Assembly: GCA_040754625.1 (NCBI GenBank)
Contig: JBFMCF010000097.1
Coordinates: 1 to 38,008, forward strand
Origin: a bacterium
GTDB taxonomy: Bacteria; JACRDZ01; JAQUKH01
Length of the DNA: 38,008 bases
Reading direction: 5' to 3'
A program made the position numbers and the translations under genes. Below are positions 8,501 to 25,342 of this stretch, piece by piece (the stretch's first letter is position 1; each line of letters opens with the position of its first letter). The notes beneath the pieces were generated by a model. It saw nothing but the letters and a program-made list of their open reading frames with translations. It was not told where the DNA came from and searched no databases.

Positions 8501-10483
8501 TTATTCACCTCCAATCTTTTTAAAGGGTTTGTATTCCGTATCTGCTGGTTCATAGAATTTCGAAAAACATTCAACCAGGTGTAAACGCAAAGTGTGTATT
8601 GACGGGCTGAATGAGCTTACGATTATGTTGATTGAGTGGAGCAAAATGGCAAGCACCACACCGACAATTTTCATCCCAATGCCGCCCATCCCGCCGATTT
8701 GGATCCCCAGCTGATTGGCAACAACGCCGAGGATCACCCCGGCAAGACCGATTGCCATAATACGGGCGTATGAAAAAGTGTTGCTGAAAGTGCCAAGGAT
8801 CTCTACGATTCCTTTTATCCCGCCGCCCTTCGCGGCAAGAACGACCCCTACAGCTATCATTATCCCGCCTATTGTTTTGAGTATCTCGATTCCGTTCAAT
8901 ATCCCCGCGATTAAAATCACCGGTCCAAGGATAATAGTGGTGAATATCCCGGCTTTTTCATAAGTATGTTCTTTATTATGTTCCCTTATGCCGTTGATCA
9001 TGCCGAATATCAAACCGAAACCGATGTGTATGACACCCATGATAATCGCCAATACCAGGAGCTGGCTCATAAACACCATCCTGTTTAAAGGAAAAGGTAC
9101 CCCAAAAACGTTATAGGTCGGTAAATGTATTTTAAGGTGCTCAAGCACCAGCTCGAGCCCGTTGCCAAACGCTTCGAGGTACATGATACCCCAGATTATT
9201 GCACCGATGGAGGATATTCTCAACACCTTGGAAAACACCATAAAAACATCGTCGCCTTTGGATGCTTTTTTAAGCAGATAAGCAATATACAGCATAATTA
9301 AACCGTAGCCGATGTCTCCCACCATCATTCCAAAAATAATAGGGAAAAATATAGCCATAAAAACTGTCGGATCTATCCCCCCGTATTTTGGTTTTTTCAC
9401 AAAAGAATAAAAGAATTCAAAAGGTTTCGCCCATGCAGGGTTAACAAGCGCGACTGGAGCGTTCTCCAGGTCATGATGCGAATTATCAAGCTTTAATATC
9501 GCGACTTTCCCAAAGAATTCATTAATTAAATCATTTTTACATTTCTCAAATTCTTTTTCAGGTATCCATCCGGTAATAATAAAAGTATGCCCTGTGCTTC
9601 CAAATTGCGGAATGACTTTTATTTCTTCATCTTTGTCCCTTAAAACATTCCTGACGGCAATTACGCGATGGTGCCAGGTAGCGGATATATTTTCCAGTTC
9701 ATTATTGATTCCCTTCAATTCCTCGGGTATTTGTTTTCTTCTTTCATTAATTTTGACAAGCGCGTTTTCAAAAGAATCTTTAGCGACTTCTTCGGGTAGT
9801 TTTATTTCATTGACTTTTTCCATTGAAAAGAAATCGTGGACGGATTTTGAATAAATTTTGTTGTAGATTATGATAATACCTATATTTTTATTATCAACAG
9901 GGGCGGAAACCAGATGGCATTGTTTTTTACATATAATTTCAAGCTCTTCTTTCAGGCCGTCAATAGCGGCCTTGTTTTCTATATCAAGGAGAAGCGCTAT
10001 TGATTCGAAACCTTCGGTAGTGCAAATTTGTTTTGCCAGCGGCTGAATTTTTTCCAATATCGGCTCGTATTTCGAATAAACCGACATCTTGGCTTCCAGG
10101 TCGTTCTTTTTCTCATAAAGCTCCGTGGCTTTTATTTTTACGCCGTCAAATATTATATCAACCTCTTTTAACAAATCGTCAAAGGATTTGTTCCACAATT
10201 CTTTATAATGGGCCCTGGTTTTTTCTCTATCTATTTTTGTGTCTTTTAAGGTTATTATTATGCCGTTTACTTTTGTCAAAGCCGATTCAATTCTTTTCTT
10301 TTTTTCAGCTAAAATCGGTTCAACAACCATTGGGGTCATATAGGATTCTTCTTCATGTGTTTCATTTATTTCACGCGTAATATTTTCAACATGAAGGGTA
10401 CCTACCTGATGCATATAACTTACAACATCGAGAAAAATAGTTTTTGGACCTACGACCTGCACCTTCGCCATTTTTAAATGCAT
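8501..10483 (-). CDS. atpI: V/A-type ATPase subunit I (membrane stator)
   Basis: Subunit I, the counterpart of the yeast 116-kDa a subunit, provides the ion half-channels. Residues 1-350 are a soluble coiled-coil arm. The C-terminal half holds about seven or eight membrane helices, beginning near FMAIFFPIIFGMMVGDIGYG. The essential membrane Arg is R574 in FSYARIMAIGLAG. The length of 660 aa is normal. The chosen ATG (MHLKMAKVQ) has a GGGGG motif upstream; the Met at residue 5 is an alternative. It lies 2 bp before atpK. Confidence 0.96.
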   Translation of the reverse strand: MHLKMAKVQVVGPKTIFLDVVSYMHQVGTLHVENITREINETHEEESYMTPMVVEPILAEKKKRIESALTKVNGIIITLKDTKIDREKTRAHYKELWNKSFDDLLKEVDIIFDGVKIKATELYEKKNDLEAKMSVYSKYEPILEKIQPLAKQICTTEGFESIALLLDIENKAAIDGLKEELEIICKKQCHLVSAPVDNKNIGIIIIYNKIYSKSVHDFFSMEKVNEIKLPEEVAKDSFENALVKINERRKQIPEELKGINNELENISATWHHRVIAVRNVLRDKDEEIKVIPQFGSTGHTFIITGWIPEKEFEKCKNDLINEFFGKVAILKLDNSHHDLENAPVALVNPAWAKPFEFFYSFVKKPKYGGIDPTVFMAIFFPIIFGMMVGDIGYGLIMLYIAYLLKKASKGDDVFMVFSKVLRISSIGAIIWGIMYLEAFGNGLELVLEHLKIHLPTYNVFGVPFPLNRMVFMSQLLVLAIIMGVIHIGFGLIFGMINGIREHNKEHTYEKAGIFTTIILGPVILIAGILNGIEILKTIGGIMIAVGVVLAAKGGGIKGIVEILGTFSNTFSYARIMAIGLAGVILGVVANQLGIQIGGMGGIGMKIVGVVLAILLHSINIIVSSFSPSIHTLRLHLVECFSKFYEPADTEYKPFKKIGGE

Positions 10484-16873: not shown

Positions 16874-17821
16874 ATGAGCAATATACATCAAACTAAAATC
16901 CTTGTCGTGGATGATGACCCCGATATAAGAGAAGCTATCAAGCTTACGCTGGATTCTATCGCTTATAACGTCATTGAAGCGGAAAACGGCACCAGGGCAA
17001 TGGAATTGGTGATTGCTGAAGAACCTGACCTTGTTATTCTGGACCTGATGATGCCCGGTATAAGCGGCTTGGAAGTCTGTAAAAAATTAAAAGAAAGCGC
17101 CCTGACATCACATTTACCAATATTAATGCTCACGGCTAAAAACCAGGTGGATGATAAAATAAAAGGGCTGGCTATCGGTGCAGATGAATATCTGGCAAAA
17201 CCGTTTGAACCGCTTGAATTGGAGGCGAGGGTCAAAGCACTTATCCGGCAGGTAAGAAGAGATTTATATGCGAACCCGATGACCAAACTGCCGGGAAACG
17301 TTGCTATTGAAAGAGAACTCCAGACTTTAATCGAAGTTAAAAAACAATTCGCGTTTGCTTACGTGGACATAGATAATTTTAAAGCTTATAATGACACTTA
17401 CGGGTATGCTTCCGGAGATTCTATAATCAAACTCACGGCAAGGGCCATCATTGACAATGTTAAAAATTTCGGGAATCCCGATGATTTTGTCGGGCATATC
17501 GGCGGAGACGATTTTGTTTTCATCACAACACCTGACAAGATAGAAAATATCTGCCAGAAACTGATCCGGACATTTGATGAGTTAGCCCCTTTACAATATA
17601 ACAGCGAAGACAGGAAAAACGGCTTTATCATTACAAAAGACCGCCAGGGTAATATAAGAAAATTCCCGCTTATAACAATTTCCATTGCAATTATTACAAA
17701 TGAAAATCTTGATATTACCCATCATGTTCAGGTAAGTGAACGCGCCGCGGAATTAAAAAATCATTTAAAGACCCTCCAGGGGAGTAATTATCTTAAAGAA
17801 CGGCGGCAAATTAAAGTTTAA
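16874..17821 (+). CDS. Response regulator: receiver plus degenerate GGDEF domain
   Basis: Residues 8-125 are a CheY-like receiver with acidic pocket D13-D15, phospho-acceptor D57 (VILDLMMPG), T87 and K109. Residues 130-300 are a GGDEF-type domain with FAYVDIDNFKAYNDTYG. The signature is GGDDF at 210-214, so the usual catalytic Glu is Asp, and no RxxD inhibitory site is visible. Diguanylate cyclase activity is therefore doubtful; nucleotide sensing is possible. It is followed 18 bp later by a hybrid histidine kinase, its likely phosphodonor. No Shine-Dalgarno motif precedes the ATG. Confidence 0.9.
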   Translation: MSNIHQTKILVVDDDPDIREAIKLTLDSIAYNVIEAENGTRAMELVIAEEPDLVILDLMMPGISGLEVCKKLKESALTSHLPILMLTAKNQVDDKIKGLAIGADEYLAKPFEPLELEARVKALIRQVRRDLYANPMTKLPGNVAIERELQTLIEVKKQFAFAYVDIDNFKAYNDTYGYASGDSIIKLTARAIIDNVKNFGNPDDFVGHIGGDDFVFITTPDKIENICQKLIRTFDELAPLQYNSEDRKNGFIITKDRQGNIRKFPLITISIAIITNENLDITHHVQVSERAAELKNHLKTLQGSNYLKERRQIKV

Positions 17822-17839: not shown

Positions 17840-19498
17840 ATGAAACTTAATATTGTCCAGAAATTAACAGTCGGGTTCCTGGCTGTAGTATTTATTACAA
17901 GCATCGTCGGAAGTATTGCTTACTACAGCCTTTCAATTGTTAATAACCAACTGGCAAATAATTTAAAAGAAGAAAAGCTTTTATTAAAAGAAAACAGAGA
18001 CCTAACCCCCGATATCCAGCATAAAATTATTTTACAATCGGAATACGCGATGAAAACCGCTGATAACGCAAAAACCATTTTATTCTGGTTTATCATTTTG
18101 AGCCTTATAATAAGTATTATTATTTCGTTTTACCTGGCAAATAAACTTACTGACCCAATTATAATTTTGACCAAAAAAGCGTTTGAAATAGGCAAAGGAG
18201 AATACGGGAAAGAAATACATATTGAATCAAAAGACGAAATCGGTGAATTGGCCAATACCTTCAACATTATGTCAAAACTTGTAAAACTAAGAGAAAATGA
18301 ACTTCATTCTGCAAATCAAACTCTTCAAAAACAAAATAAAGAACTGGAAATATTAAGTAATGCCAAAAGCGAATTTGTCTCCATGGTTTCACATGAATTA
18401 CGTACACCCCTGACAGCTATCAAAGCACATATTTCGCTTTTAAAAAGCGGCAAAATGGGCGAATTAAACAACACCCAGATTCACAGCCTGGATGTCGCGG
18501 ACAAAAAAACCGACTTTTTAAATAATCTTATCGGTGATCTTCTTGATTTGGCAAGGATTGAATCCAAAAAATACGGGTTAAAACCGCAAAATACTGATTT
18601 ATACGAACTTGTTAATGTCACACACGCGACATTAGAACCTCTTCTGCAAAAGAAAAATATGAAATTCAATATTAAGCTAAACCCTGACATCCCGGCTTTA
18701 TATTTGGACCAGGATAAAATTATTCAGGTACTGACAAACTTAATCGGGAATTCCATTAAATATACGCCCGCGGACGGAGAAATTACCCTTTCCGCGAGAA
18801 AAATCAGCCCGCAATTCGTAGAGATCTCCGTTAGTGATAACGGTATCGGTATATCTAACGATGATATCGGCAGGGTATTCGACCAGTTTTACAGGGTAAA
18901 CACAAGCAAAGAATACCAGGGAACAGGCCTTGGACTATCAATTGTGAAAAAAATTATAGAGCTTCACGGATGTTCCATATGGGTCGAAAGCGAGCTGGGT
19001 AAAGGCAGTAAATTTTATTTCACACTGCCCATAAGCCAGACAGTGCCTCCTGTTGAAGAAAAACCTGAAACCCTGGTACTGCAGCTACCCAAAAAAGGAA
19101 AAACTGAAAAAATACCTTTAAAAACCGGTGATAGAAGAACAATAATGGTTGTTGATGACGATCAGGAATTAAGGGACATTACTAAAAGTATACTTGAATT
19201 CGAAAAAAAATGGGAGATTATTACCGCGAATAACGGACAAGAAGCGGTGGAAAAAGCAGTCAAAGAACAAATCGACCTTATACTTCTGGATTTACGCATG
19301 CCTAAATTAGACGGATTCGGGGTCATCCAAACCTTAAAAAACAATCCGAAAACCAAAGACATTTCTATTATAATCCTTTCCGCGTCAGGCCAAAAACAGG
19401 AAAGAGAGAAAGGATTCAATATGGGAATCGAAGATTATATCGCAAAGCCGTACCAGCCTGATTTTTTAATCAATAAAGTCAAGGAATTTTTAAATTGA
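17840..19498 (+). CDS. Hybrid sensor histidine kinase with HAMP and C-terminal receiver
   Basis: The domain order is: membrane helix 1 (about 10-33), a short 45-residue extracytoplasmic loop, membrane helix 2 (80-100), HAMP (about 101-155), HisKA with phospho-acceptor H185 in VSHELRTPLTAIKAH, HATPase with N box GNSIKYTP and G boxes SDNGIGIS and GTGLGLSIVKK, then a receiver (about 434-552) with D484. The external loop is too short for a classic ligand-binding domain, so sensing may occur in the membrane or through partners. AAGGAAG lies before the ATG. The preceding response regulator and the following globin protein are likely parts of the same pathway. Confidence 0.95.
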   Translation: MKLNIVQKLTVGFLAVVFITSIVGSIAYYSLSIVNNQLANNLKEEKLLLKENRDLTPDIQHKIILQSEYAMKTADNAKTILFWFIILSLIISIIISFYLANKLTDPIIILTKKAFEIGKGEYGKEIHIESKDEIGELANTFNIMSKLVKLRENELHSANQTLQKQNKELEILSNAKSEFVSMVSHELRTPLTAIKAHISLLKSGKMGELNNTQIHSLDVADKKTDFLNNLIGDLLDLARIESKKYGLKPQNTDLYELVNVTHATLEPLLQKKNMKFNIKLNPDIPALYLDQDKIIQVLTNLIGNSIKYTPADGEITLSARKISPQFVEISVSDNGIGISNDDIGRVFDQFYRVNTSKEYQGTGLGLSIVKKIIELHGCSIWVESELGKGSKFYFTLPISQTVPPVEEKPETLVLQLPKKGKTEKIPLKTGDRRTIMVVDDDQELRDITKSILEFEKKWEIITANNGQEAVEKAVKEQIDLILLDLRMPKLDGFGVIQTLKNNPKTKDISIIILSASGQKQEREKGFNMGIEDYIAKPYQPDFLINKVKEFLN

Positions 19499-22510: not shown

Positions 22511-23488
22511 TTAATTGTTCCTGGCAGCCAGGTGATTCACTTTTTCAAAAATGTTCCTGGCTATATCATCACTTATTTCATTATGGTTTATTATATCATC
22601 GCAGAATTTCTTCATTATGCCGGGCTTTTGATATTTTGCTCCTATTAAAATGCCATATGTAAGCATATTCCTCTTTTTCCTTGACGCATTAAATTTCTCT
22701 AAAAATTCATTGCTTAAACTGCAAAGATCATCCGTTATAAATACCAGGTCGGCATCGTTAAAATCGGGCCTTTTTCTGAAAGATAACGCGGTACTTAGCG
22801 GCGTCTCAAAATCAGTGCCGCCGCCAATAAATGTTACAGCATATTCAAAAAGCCCTTCTAAAAAATTCAATTTTATTATTTCTTTATTTGCTTTATGTAT
22901 CTCGACTTCCTCTTTATTAAAAATATAAGTCTGCACTTTGCCCCTTCTCCCGAATAAAATACCTATATAATTCCTGTTTTCCACCCTGGCTATCTCTAAA
23001 AGTCCCATGGCGATTGCCTTTGCTGAAATTTCCTGTTTGCCGCACATGGATAAGCTTGTATCTATGCATACAATAATACTTCCTTGCTTTTTATTTTTTT
23101 GAGTCGGCTCTTTAAATTCATATTGAAGTATCCTTTTGTTGATTAAGCGCTGGTAAAAATCATACTGGAAACTGGGATGAGACAAATAATTCATTTCTAT
23201 CGGGTGCATTTTTAATAAATCGTCACCCATAATTACATTATACACTTCTGAAGACAATTCATAGATTTTAGCATAATGTGAAAACAGGGCAAGGTGGCGC
23301 ATGTGCCCGATTATTTTGGCAAGTTCCTGTAAACGAGTGCTTTTTTTGATTTTTTCCGCAAGTTCAATTTTTCTGCTGTAATGCAGTTTTTCAATCGAAT
23401 TAGTTTCCAAATTCCAGCCGCTGCAGATTCTTACTGTGTTTTTTATATTATTTATGTCTTTAACAATTTTATTTGTTTCCCGGGACAC
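22511..23488 (-). CDS. viaA: ViaA-like VWA protein, C-terminal part after a frameshift
   Basis: The frame encodes the C-terminal two thirds of a ViaA-type protein. It has the von Willebrand A metal site DTSLSM at residues 143-148 of this segment (IIVCIDTSLSMCGK), GGGTDFETPL and VFITDDLC, plus the ViaA-like MHPIEMNYLSHPSFQYDFY. The formal start is a GTG at 23488, but it has no good ribosome binding site. The same frame stays open upstream to the T9 run at 23579-23587, where it meets the N-terminal frame. One extra T there yields a single 506-aa protein, close to the size of known ViaA. Function: partner of the RavA ATPase. Confidence 0.85.
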   Translation of the reverse strand: MSRETNKIVKDINNIKNTVRICSGWNLETNSIEKLHYSRKIELAEKIKKSTRLQELAKIIGHMRHLALFSHYAKIYELSSEVYNVIMGDDLLKMHPIEMNYLSHPSFQYDFYQRLINKRILQYEFKEPTQKNKKQGSIIVCIDTSLSMCGKQEISAKAIAMGLLEIARVENRNYIGILFGRRGKVQTYIFNKEEVEIHKANKEIIKLNFLEGLFEYAVTFIGGGTDFETPLSTALSFRKRPDFNDADLVFITDDLCSLSNEFLEKFNASRKKRNMLTYGILIGAKYQKPGIMKKFCDDIINHNEISDDIARNIFEKVNHLAARNN

Positions 23489-23571
23489 CGATTTGGAAAC
23501 CTTATTGCTTAATACTTTAATTGCTCTTTCTTTTCTCCCTTTTTTACTGAATAAATTTTTTATAAACGAAA

Positions 23572-24030
23572 TTATGCTAAAAAAAAACCAGTATTTCTTT
23601 TCTCTAATGAATTCCTGATTACTTCCCTGTTTAAATCCGTATTTTTTTTATGAAAATATTTTATATTTCTTTTCCTGCTGCGCAGGGATTTTAATAATTT
23701 ATCAACATACATTTCTGTCGCCCACAGGGCAGTCGATCTGCTGAAATTTGTTTTTTCTTTTATTGTCTCATACGATGGGTCTAGAATCAGCCCGTTCATT
23801 ATTGTCAGGTTTATAAAATATTTTGGGTCAATTTCCTCTATCGTTTTTACTTTCGGGTTTATCATATATAAACTGCAAAATATGTCACAGACGAGGTTAG
23901 AAAAACCGGGCAGTAATTTTGCGCCCTCCTTTTCTTTTTCCTCTAAAAACTTTGATATCTGCCGCAGTTTATAATATATTTTCCGCAATTCGTCATCGCT
24001 GTTTATTGTGTATAAATATTCAATTGCCAC
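23572..24030 (-). CDS. viaA: ViaA-like protein, N-terminal part (frame ends after T9 run)
   Basis: This 152-aa helical, Lys-rich frame follows ravA by 17 bp and has no VWA motif of its own. It ends in GFFLA then stop, right after nine T residues in the coding strand. Sliding back one base (or adding one T) continues into the C-terminal frame without a stop. Together they give a 506-residue protein. The most likely explanations are a homopolymer error, a real mutation, or slippage-dependent expression. Alone, this piece would lack the metal-binding domain. Confidence 0.75.
   Translation of the reverse strand: MAIEYLYTINSDDELRKIYYKLRQISKFLEEKEKEGAKLLPGFSNLVCDIFCSLYMINPKVKTIEEIDPKYFINLTIMNGLILDPSYETIKEKTNFSRSTALWATEMYVDKLLKSLRSRKRNIKYFHKKNTDLNREVIRNSLEKRNTGFFLA
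23579..23587 (-). other. Homopolymer A9/T9 frameshift site in viaA
   Basis: Nine A bases on the + strand read as T9 in the mRNA sense, within GG-TTTTTTTTT-AGC. The N-terminal frame reads GGT TTT TTT TTA GCA TAA; the downstream frame reads TTT TTT TTT AGC ATA. The run fits the slippery heptamer U-UUU-UUU for -1 ribosomal slippage, and its length also permits RNA polymerase slippage. Confidence 0.7.
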
Positions 24031-24047: not shown

Positions 24048-25307
24048 TTATTCACTTAAATTTTTTTCACCCCAAAATTCCCTGTACGCCGTTGCTGAAA
24101 ATTTTGACAGCAATTTCTGCGGCATGACTTCCATTTTTTTTATATATGTCTCAATTATATTTTTCCCCGCGTTGTTACTGCAATTTTCAAAAAGTTCCCT
24201 TGGCTCAAATAACAAATTGTTAAGGTCTTTTTCAATGCCCTTCAACTTATTCCTTAATATTTCAAATTCCTTAAAATCCTTGACATGGCCTATGTCCTTC
24301 TGCAAATGTATTTCAATTGACCTGACTGTGTCGTTGTATATTTTGCTCGCCTGTTTATAAATCTCGGCGACCCGCATTACTTCCTTGCTTCCTATTGATT
24401 TGTAAATTATTTTTTGAATATTTTCCTTTTCCATCTGGTTTTTGGTCTGCCAGTATATATTTTCCAGTATGCATAAATCGTCGGGCTCTACCTCCTCAAA
24501 ATGATGGTTTAAATAAGCGTATGCTTTTATTGCTTTTACGGATTCCTTATATCTCCTGTCTGACGGCTGAATGTTATGGTTTGTTTTCAAATCTGAACGG
24601 ATATTATTGATAATCTTGTAAATAATCGGCGGGATTTTTATCTTAACGACTTCTTCCTGGAAACCGCATAAATCGTCAAGTGTTATTGTGGTTTGAGGCT
24701 TGAGGACTTCATTTGATATCATTGAGACAAATGGTGAATTTTCGTTATTATTTATTGAAAGATAATCCACCATGTATCTTAAAAGAAACCTGTCGTTTAA
24801 GCCCATAAGTTCTTCCTGGTCTTTCCCGGGAAGCTCGTTGCTCGCACCTATAAGGGTAATCAGGGGGGAATCAATTTCCTCGCCGGGATTAATCGTGCAT
24901 TTACGTTCATGTATCAGCCTGAGAAGCGCGTTAAGTGTGACCGCGCTGCATTTAAATATCTCATCAAGAAACGCGATATGGGCCTGGGGCAGTTTTTTTT
25001 CAGACCTGTTTACAAACCTAATGAGTTTTCCTTTCTGGTCCATTTCCTCTTCAACCATCACTTCGCTTACCAGTAAATCTTTATCAGTCGTGAATTTTGT
25101 CAACAGATGGAAAAAATACTTGGCCCCTTTAATACTTGTGCATAGTGTTTCTACCAGGTTTGTTTTCGCGGTTCCCGGCGGGCCTACAAGAAGAAGATGC
25201 TGTTTTGCCAACAGAGCTGTTAAGGCCCCGTCAACGACCTCACCGCGTTCTTTAAAATAATCTTTCAATTCCGCCCTGAGTTTCTGAAATTGTTCATACA
25301 TTATCAT
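24048..25307 (-). CDS. ravA: RavA/MoxR-family AAA+ ATPase
   Basis: This is a MoxR-type AAA+ ATPase of the RavA branch. Walker A is GPPGTAKT (residues 42-49), Walker B is FLDEIF (113-118), and the sensor region is TLIGASNELP (151-160), followed by LNDRFLLRYMVDYL and PSDRRYKESVKAIKAYAYL, which is typical of RavA. The C-terminal ~120 residues are a charged helical extension. I chose the ATG at 25307 (419 aa), because AAAGGA lies 6 bp upstream; an in-frame TTG at 25322 is less likely. The next gene is ViaA-like, the usual partner. It is 35 bp after a GT9 gene in an envelope cluster. Confidence 0.92.
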   Translation of the reverse strand: MIMYEQFQKLRAELKDYFKERGEVVDGALTALLAKQHLLLVGPPGTAKTNLVETLCTSIKGAKYFFHLLTKFTTDKDLLVSEVMVEEEMDQKGKLIRFVNRSEKKLPQAHIAFLDEIFKCSAVTLNALLRLIHERKCTINPGEEIDSPLITLIGASNELPGKDQEELMGLNDRFLLRYMVDYLSINNNENSPFVSMISNEVLKPQTTITLDDLCGFQEEVVKIKIPPIIYKIINNIRSDLKTNHNIQPSDRRYKESVKAIKAYAYLNHHFEEVEPDDLCILENIYWQTKNQMEKENIQKIIYKSIGSKEVMRVAEIYKQASKIYNDTVRSIEIHLQKDIGHVKDFKEFEILRNKLKGIEKDLNNLLFEPRELFENCSNNAGKNIIETYIKKMEVMPQKLLSKFSATAYREFWGEKNLSE

Positions 25308-25342
25308 TTTGAATCCTTTCAAACATCATTTAAAGGGGTTTT

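Follow-up and report, generated by a model that had tools for sequence, protein, structure and literature searches.

In the RavA-ViaA system of Escherichia coli, a MoxR AAA+ ATPase (RavA) is paired with a VWA protein (ViaA), the N-terminal part of which comprises residues 1-319 (PMC9489729). Coding sequences interrupted at homopolymers have been described in several other bacterial systems. In tssM1 of Citrobacter rodentium, transcripts with bases inserted at an A11 run continue in the other frame, and the gene yields about 20% full-length product (PMC4256274). In Buchnera and Blochmannia, indels in long A/T homopolymers interrupt genes whose coding sequence is otherwise intact, and bacterial slippage takes place on runs of nine A or T (PMC5009743). 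Reporter assays in E. coli revealed that RNA polymerase insertion rescued a -1 frame at about 5% on T7 and about 10% on T8, and that the enzyme prefers T runs over A runs for slippage (PMC6260861). Isolated frame breaks that are validated by homologues are mainly errors and recent indels (PMC3711429, PMC8808543; see also PMC5009743).

In this study, a viaA-like gene that is divided between two reading frames at a run of nine T was analysed in a window of 38,008 nt, which is the whole stretch of DNA examined (contig JBFMCF010000097.1 of the draft bacterial assembly GCA_040754625.1). The two pieces of the gene occupy 22511-24030 (1520 nt), and the features of the locus are as follows:

24048..25322, minus strand: RavA-like MoxR AAA+ ATPase, 424 aa as called (Pfam, NCBIfam and the counterpart in the related genome G001)
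23572..24030, minus strand: 5' piece of the viaA-like gene (66% identical to G001 residues 1-147)
23579..23587, minus strand: T9 run, where the coding frame shifts by -1 (sequence and codon-usage scores)
22511..23578, minus strand: 3' piece of the viaA-like gene, 355 codons and the stop, VWA domain with MIDAS (profiles and G001, 72%)
23486..23488, minus strand: first GTG of the 3' frame, 325 aa, candidate re-initiation site (frame listing)

The locus resembles E. coli RavA-ViaA in gene order, in the pairing of a MoxR AAA+ with a VWA protein, in the probable succession of a helix-rich N-terminal part and a C-terminal VWA domain with MIDAS, and in length (506 aa here against 487 profile positions). 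It differs in that the match is distant (about 100 bits against a ViaA cut-off of 500 bits, and 130 against 681 for the RavA partner) and in that viaA is interrupted in the assembly. Like tssM1, the gene is interrupted shortly after a homopolymer; unlike tssM1, in which the A11 run is longer, slippage has been experimentally shown and a similar case is known from a Yersinia tssM (PMC4256274), the run here is absent from relatives. An indel in a long A/T homopolymer of an otherwise intact coding sequence is shared with the poly(A) frameshifts of Buchnera and Blochmannia, but these are reduced, very A+T-rich symbionts in which 12-50% corrected transcripts were measured (PMC5009743), whereas the present genome is a 2.75 Mb draft with about 38% G+C in its sampled part. 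No essential difference was found from the singleton indel or error frameshifts of the GeneTack survey (PMC3711429), which likewise combine one non-conserved frame transition with intact homologues.

On the minus strand, two frames meet at the T9 run (23587..23579). The upstream frame begins with GTG at 24030 and comprises 152 codons (24030..23572); it reads ...AAT ACT GGT TTT TTT TTA GCA TAA at the junction, and its TAA (23574..23572) lies 4 nt beyond the run. The second frame is offset by -1, is open from 23620 through the T9 run (TGG TTT TTT TTT AGC ATA ATT) and reaches its stop at 22511. A codon-usage score derived from the genome's own long open frames fell from +14.9 before the run to -51.0 after it in frame 1 and rose from -35.7 to +15.8 in frame 0, thereby revealing that the coding signal changes frame precisely at T9. 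The joined reading consists of 147 codons, Gly-Phe-Phe-Phe (GFFF) and 355 codons, giving 506 aa, the length of the intact G001 protein. The initial annotation, which had described two frames joining at nine T, an upstream frame ending directly after the run, a downstream frame open back to it and a 506-aa protein restored by one base, was thus accurate on the layout of the locus. The earliest potential start of the 3' frame beyond the run is the GTG 90 nt past it, and the first ATG lies 276 nt past it. Two ordinary adjacent or overlapping genes were rejected since no start lies near the junction, and all other junctions found have one.

The 3' piece matched the NCBIfam ViaA profile NF008230 (PRK10997) over profile positions 183-467 (E 1.2e-28), and its 100.6 bits lie below the curated equivalog cut-off of 500 bits, as do the 99.0 and 94.9 bits of the intact proteins of two relatives. 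The match to Pfam VWA_2 (E 9.7e-5) was below the gathering score. All MIDAS elements are there in the 3' piece (CIDTSLSM, GGGTDFETP and FITDD, containing DTSLS, GGGTD and TDD), their key residues are invariant among the window, G001 and G003 proteins, and the VWA domain with these residues (DxSxS ... T ... D) is C-terminal, as ViaA requires. Judged by these scores, the protein is best described as a distant ViaA relative, rather than a ViaA member by the equivalog standard. The 5' piece alone had no family match in Pfam or NCBIfam and was identified solely through alignment to the intact relatives. The earlier proposal of a ViaA identity and layout, for which both fragments were to be searched against profiles, is correct as to a viaA-like gene; of the two pieces, the 3' one has the ViaA match and the intact VWA metal site, and the 5' one matches no profile. 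An AlphaFold model of an intact relative is helical over residues 1-315, with pLDDT below 50 in that part and a mean pLDDT of 44.2, and hints that the N-terminal part may be helix-rich and the C-terminal part VWA-like; a profile search of the PDB yielded no match. The gene at 24048..25322, immediately upstream and on the same strand, matched Pfam bpMoxR (6.7e-35) and AAA_lid_8 (1.4e-14) and, below the equivalog cut-off, the NCBIfam ATPase RavA profile NF010054 (1.4e-37), and it has an intact counterpart in G001. A heptosyltransferase/glycosyltransferase gene cluster surrounds the pair.

Sixty relatives were scanned altogether, and the comparison set comprised four genomes from the phylum, the window's own included. 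A viaA-like gene was present in three of these four genomes, its own included, and the remaining genomes among the 60 relatives gave no viaA-like match. The gene is continuous in both other carriers, neither of which belongs to the same species as the window: it encodes 506 aa in G001, a member of the same genus (MAG STD1_102, contig JAQUKH010000001.1), and 516 aa in G003, from the same phylum (a Candidatus Desantisbacteria groundwater MAG, JACQWU010000121.1). The names of these relatives make an uncultured bacterium in or close to that phylum the most likely source of the window. Identity between the window and G001 was 66% before the T9 run and 72% after it. At the junction, G001 reads ACG GGA TTT TTC TTT AAT (T5-C-T3) and G003 reads GGT TCT TTT TTA AGC (T6 only), and neither has the T9 run or the split frame. 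The continuous reading of the relatives corresponds to ten T in the window, where the assembly has nine, one base fewer, and the stretch between T9 and the GTG at 23488 aligns in frame to both. The order of ravA-like, viaA-like and glycosyltransferase neighbours is kept in G001; in G003, a ravA-like gene, or at minimum its 3' portion, adjoins the viaA-like gene. The neighbouring glycosyltransferase gene, which contains an A9 run, gave an unbroken alignment to G001 (334 residues, 70% identity). A missing run and an intact frame in both relatives point to a simple mutation, the outcome that the initial annotation had itself set against its slippage proposal.

Homopolymers elsewhere in the same genome were used as controls. 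The draft of 2.75 Mb contains 150 T9 placements on both strands, and such runs are thus not rare. The survey covered 75 pieces with 357 kb, namely, the window and pieces picked around A/T runs of at least nine; this sample, about 13% of the draft and not a whole-genome census, has about 38% G+C, and short frames give only a weak coding signal in it. Ninety-five A/T runs of at least nine were classified, among which 47 lay in a continuous frame, 43 were non-coding on this measure, two were weak and three were candidate junctions. Two of these three candidates were discarded, namely L057, where a gene simply begins behind the run, and L085, whose frame carries no coding signal, and viaA was the sole junction remaining. 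Among all 4,790 homopolymers of at least five in the 357 kb, viaA was also the only frame junction without a nearby start, and every other flagged junction in the survey had an ATG within about 31 nt. Since runs elsewhere keep their frame, the assembly is free of wholesale miscalls, homopolymers are not sites of genome decay and the viaA event is isolated; with 47 A/T runs of at least nine in intact frames, neither widespread miscalling of runs nor general genome decay was seen in the sampled part, and both were rejected. The in-frame runs of at least nine comprised 44 A and three T in the sense strand, whereas the A:T ratio was 66:28 at length eight. Sense-strand T runs of nine thus look avoided in coding frames of the window and the 74 other stretches (L017-L090), and such avoidance would fit the T-run preference reported for slippage by bacterial RNA polymerase.

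The sequence after the T9 run bears marks of constraint. Identity to G001 by codon position was 0.82, 0.88 and 0.51 for positions one, two and three, a pattern that is read here as that of protein-coding sequence under constraint, and about 49% of third positions already differ. Estimates of dN/dS by NG86 and YN00 were largely unusable because synonymous sites are saturated. Lineage-specific changes in the window and in G001 numbered 27 versus 17 in the 3' piece (P=0.17, not significant), 13 versus 12 in the 5' piece and seven versus nine in RavA (not significant), and faster decay of the 3' piece was rejected on this relative-rate result. The 3' frame gave no sign of decay over its 355 stop-free codons. 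About 4-5% of random substitutions in this frame would make a stop, and a stop-free length of 355 codons becomes improbable (P<0.05) once unconstrained drift has reached about 0.06-0.07 substitutions per site. Consequently, either the break is young relative to the divergence from G001, or reading of the frame continues, or the cell never had the break; the assembly alone fits all three cases.

We consider it very probable that the locus is an ordinary conserved ravA-viaA-like pair with a lone homopolymer indel or consensus error, and that no conserved or programmed recoding is involved. One T would have been lost from the ten of the continuous frame, either through a recent replication-slippage deletion in the strain or population or through a consensus error of the draft assembly, two sources to which we assign roughly even odds. 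The conservation of frame at the other runs of at least nine, by which miscalls are not widespread, weakens the case for an error. With a consensus error, the cell would carry an ordinary viaA-like gene. With a real T9, the main product would be a 152-aa N-terminal fragment, and a minority of full-length ViaA-like protein would probably still arise via ordinary, unregulated RNA polymerase slippage. A functional product is conceivable, since bacterial transcription does slip on T9 runs. A T9 that is real and kept in the population would provide another gene partly rescued by polymerase slippage, in a bacterial genome that is not strongly reduced. More generally, a change in the length of a single homopolymer of a draft genome can mimic a recoding site, and two intact relatives together with a same-genome run control suffice to make recoding unlikely.

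A maintained slippery site like that of Citrobacter tssM, at which the addition of a U by RNA polymerase or a ribosomal -1 slip on U-UUU-UUU in a fraction of events gives a short form and full-length ViaA, is the alternative that fares best, yet we regard it as improbable. The run offers U_UUU_UUU in the upstream frame, a slippery homopolymer at the junction, a sense-strand T9 is long enough for bacterial transcriptional slippage (PMC6260861, PMC5009743), and the 3' frame is undecayed. These points are countered by the single-frame genes of G001 and G003, which have no T9. The break, near residue 148, is internal to the N-terminal part, and a short form ending there would contain only a portion of that domain. 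Moreover, no transcription error restoring a frame was found in Buchnera (PMC5574713). No stimulatory stem-loop was detected downstream of T9, where the folding energies were weaker than those of shuffled controls (z = +1.38 and +1.25). Such downstream structure serves ribosomal -1 shifts, and transcriptional slippage needs none. A programmed ribosomal frameshift was accordingly rejected, with no stimulator and a site that is not conserved in homologues. The suggestion that expression depends on slippage and yields a truncated and a full form is not supported, given the run-free relatives, the missing stimulator and a break away from any domain border. It is more doubtful still that T9 recently became a working slippery site, with a fixed minority of transcripts encoding the complete RavA partner and the others a truncated N-terminal form that tunes RavA.

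Phase variation, in which reversible changes of T-run length from one generation to another would toggle viaA expression within the population, appears very unlikely, although length variation of a homopolymer within a coding region is a usual switch mechanism (PMC8808543). The T run is not kept in relatives, and many similar A9 runs occur in the same genome without a switching layout. To our knowledge, contingency genes do not typically encode a cytoplasmic ATPase cofactor. Two established polypeptides, an N-terminal fragment and a 325-aa VWA protein re-initiated at the GTG at 23488, are scarcely credible: 325 codons do follow that GTG after the upstream stop, and the isolated N-terminal part of the E. 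coli protein still binds RavA, while its isolated C-terminal part still gets to the membrane (PMC9489729), but such distant starts are unlike those at all other adjacent-gene junctions in this survey, the split lies away from the domain border and the stretch before the GTG is aligned in frame with the relatives.

Elsewhere in the window, the minus strand at 817-1977 encodes another ViaA-like protein (386 aa; BLASTP to the G001 ViaA, E 4e-19, 24% identity). This protein is without the MIDAS motif, and its gene immediately follows a V-type ATPase cluster, in which subunit I (8501-10483) is followed by E, C, F, A, B and D between 8178 and 2024. The gene is also found in G001, again beside subunit D, and a homologue is present on a short contig of G003. 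A MIDAS-less ViaA relative tied to a V-ATPase operon may merit separate study. On the plus strand, against the orientation of most of the window, a receiver-containing hybrid histidine kinase (17840-19498) adjoins a GGDEF response regulator (16874-17821).
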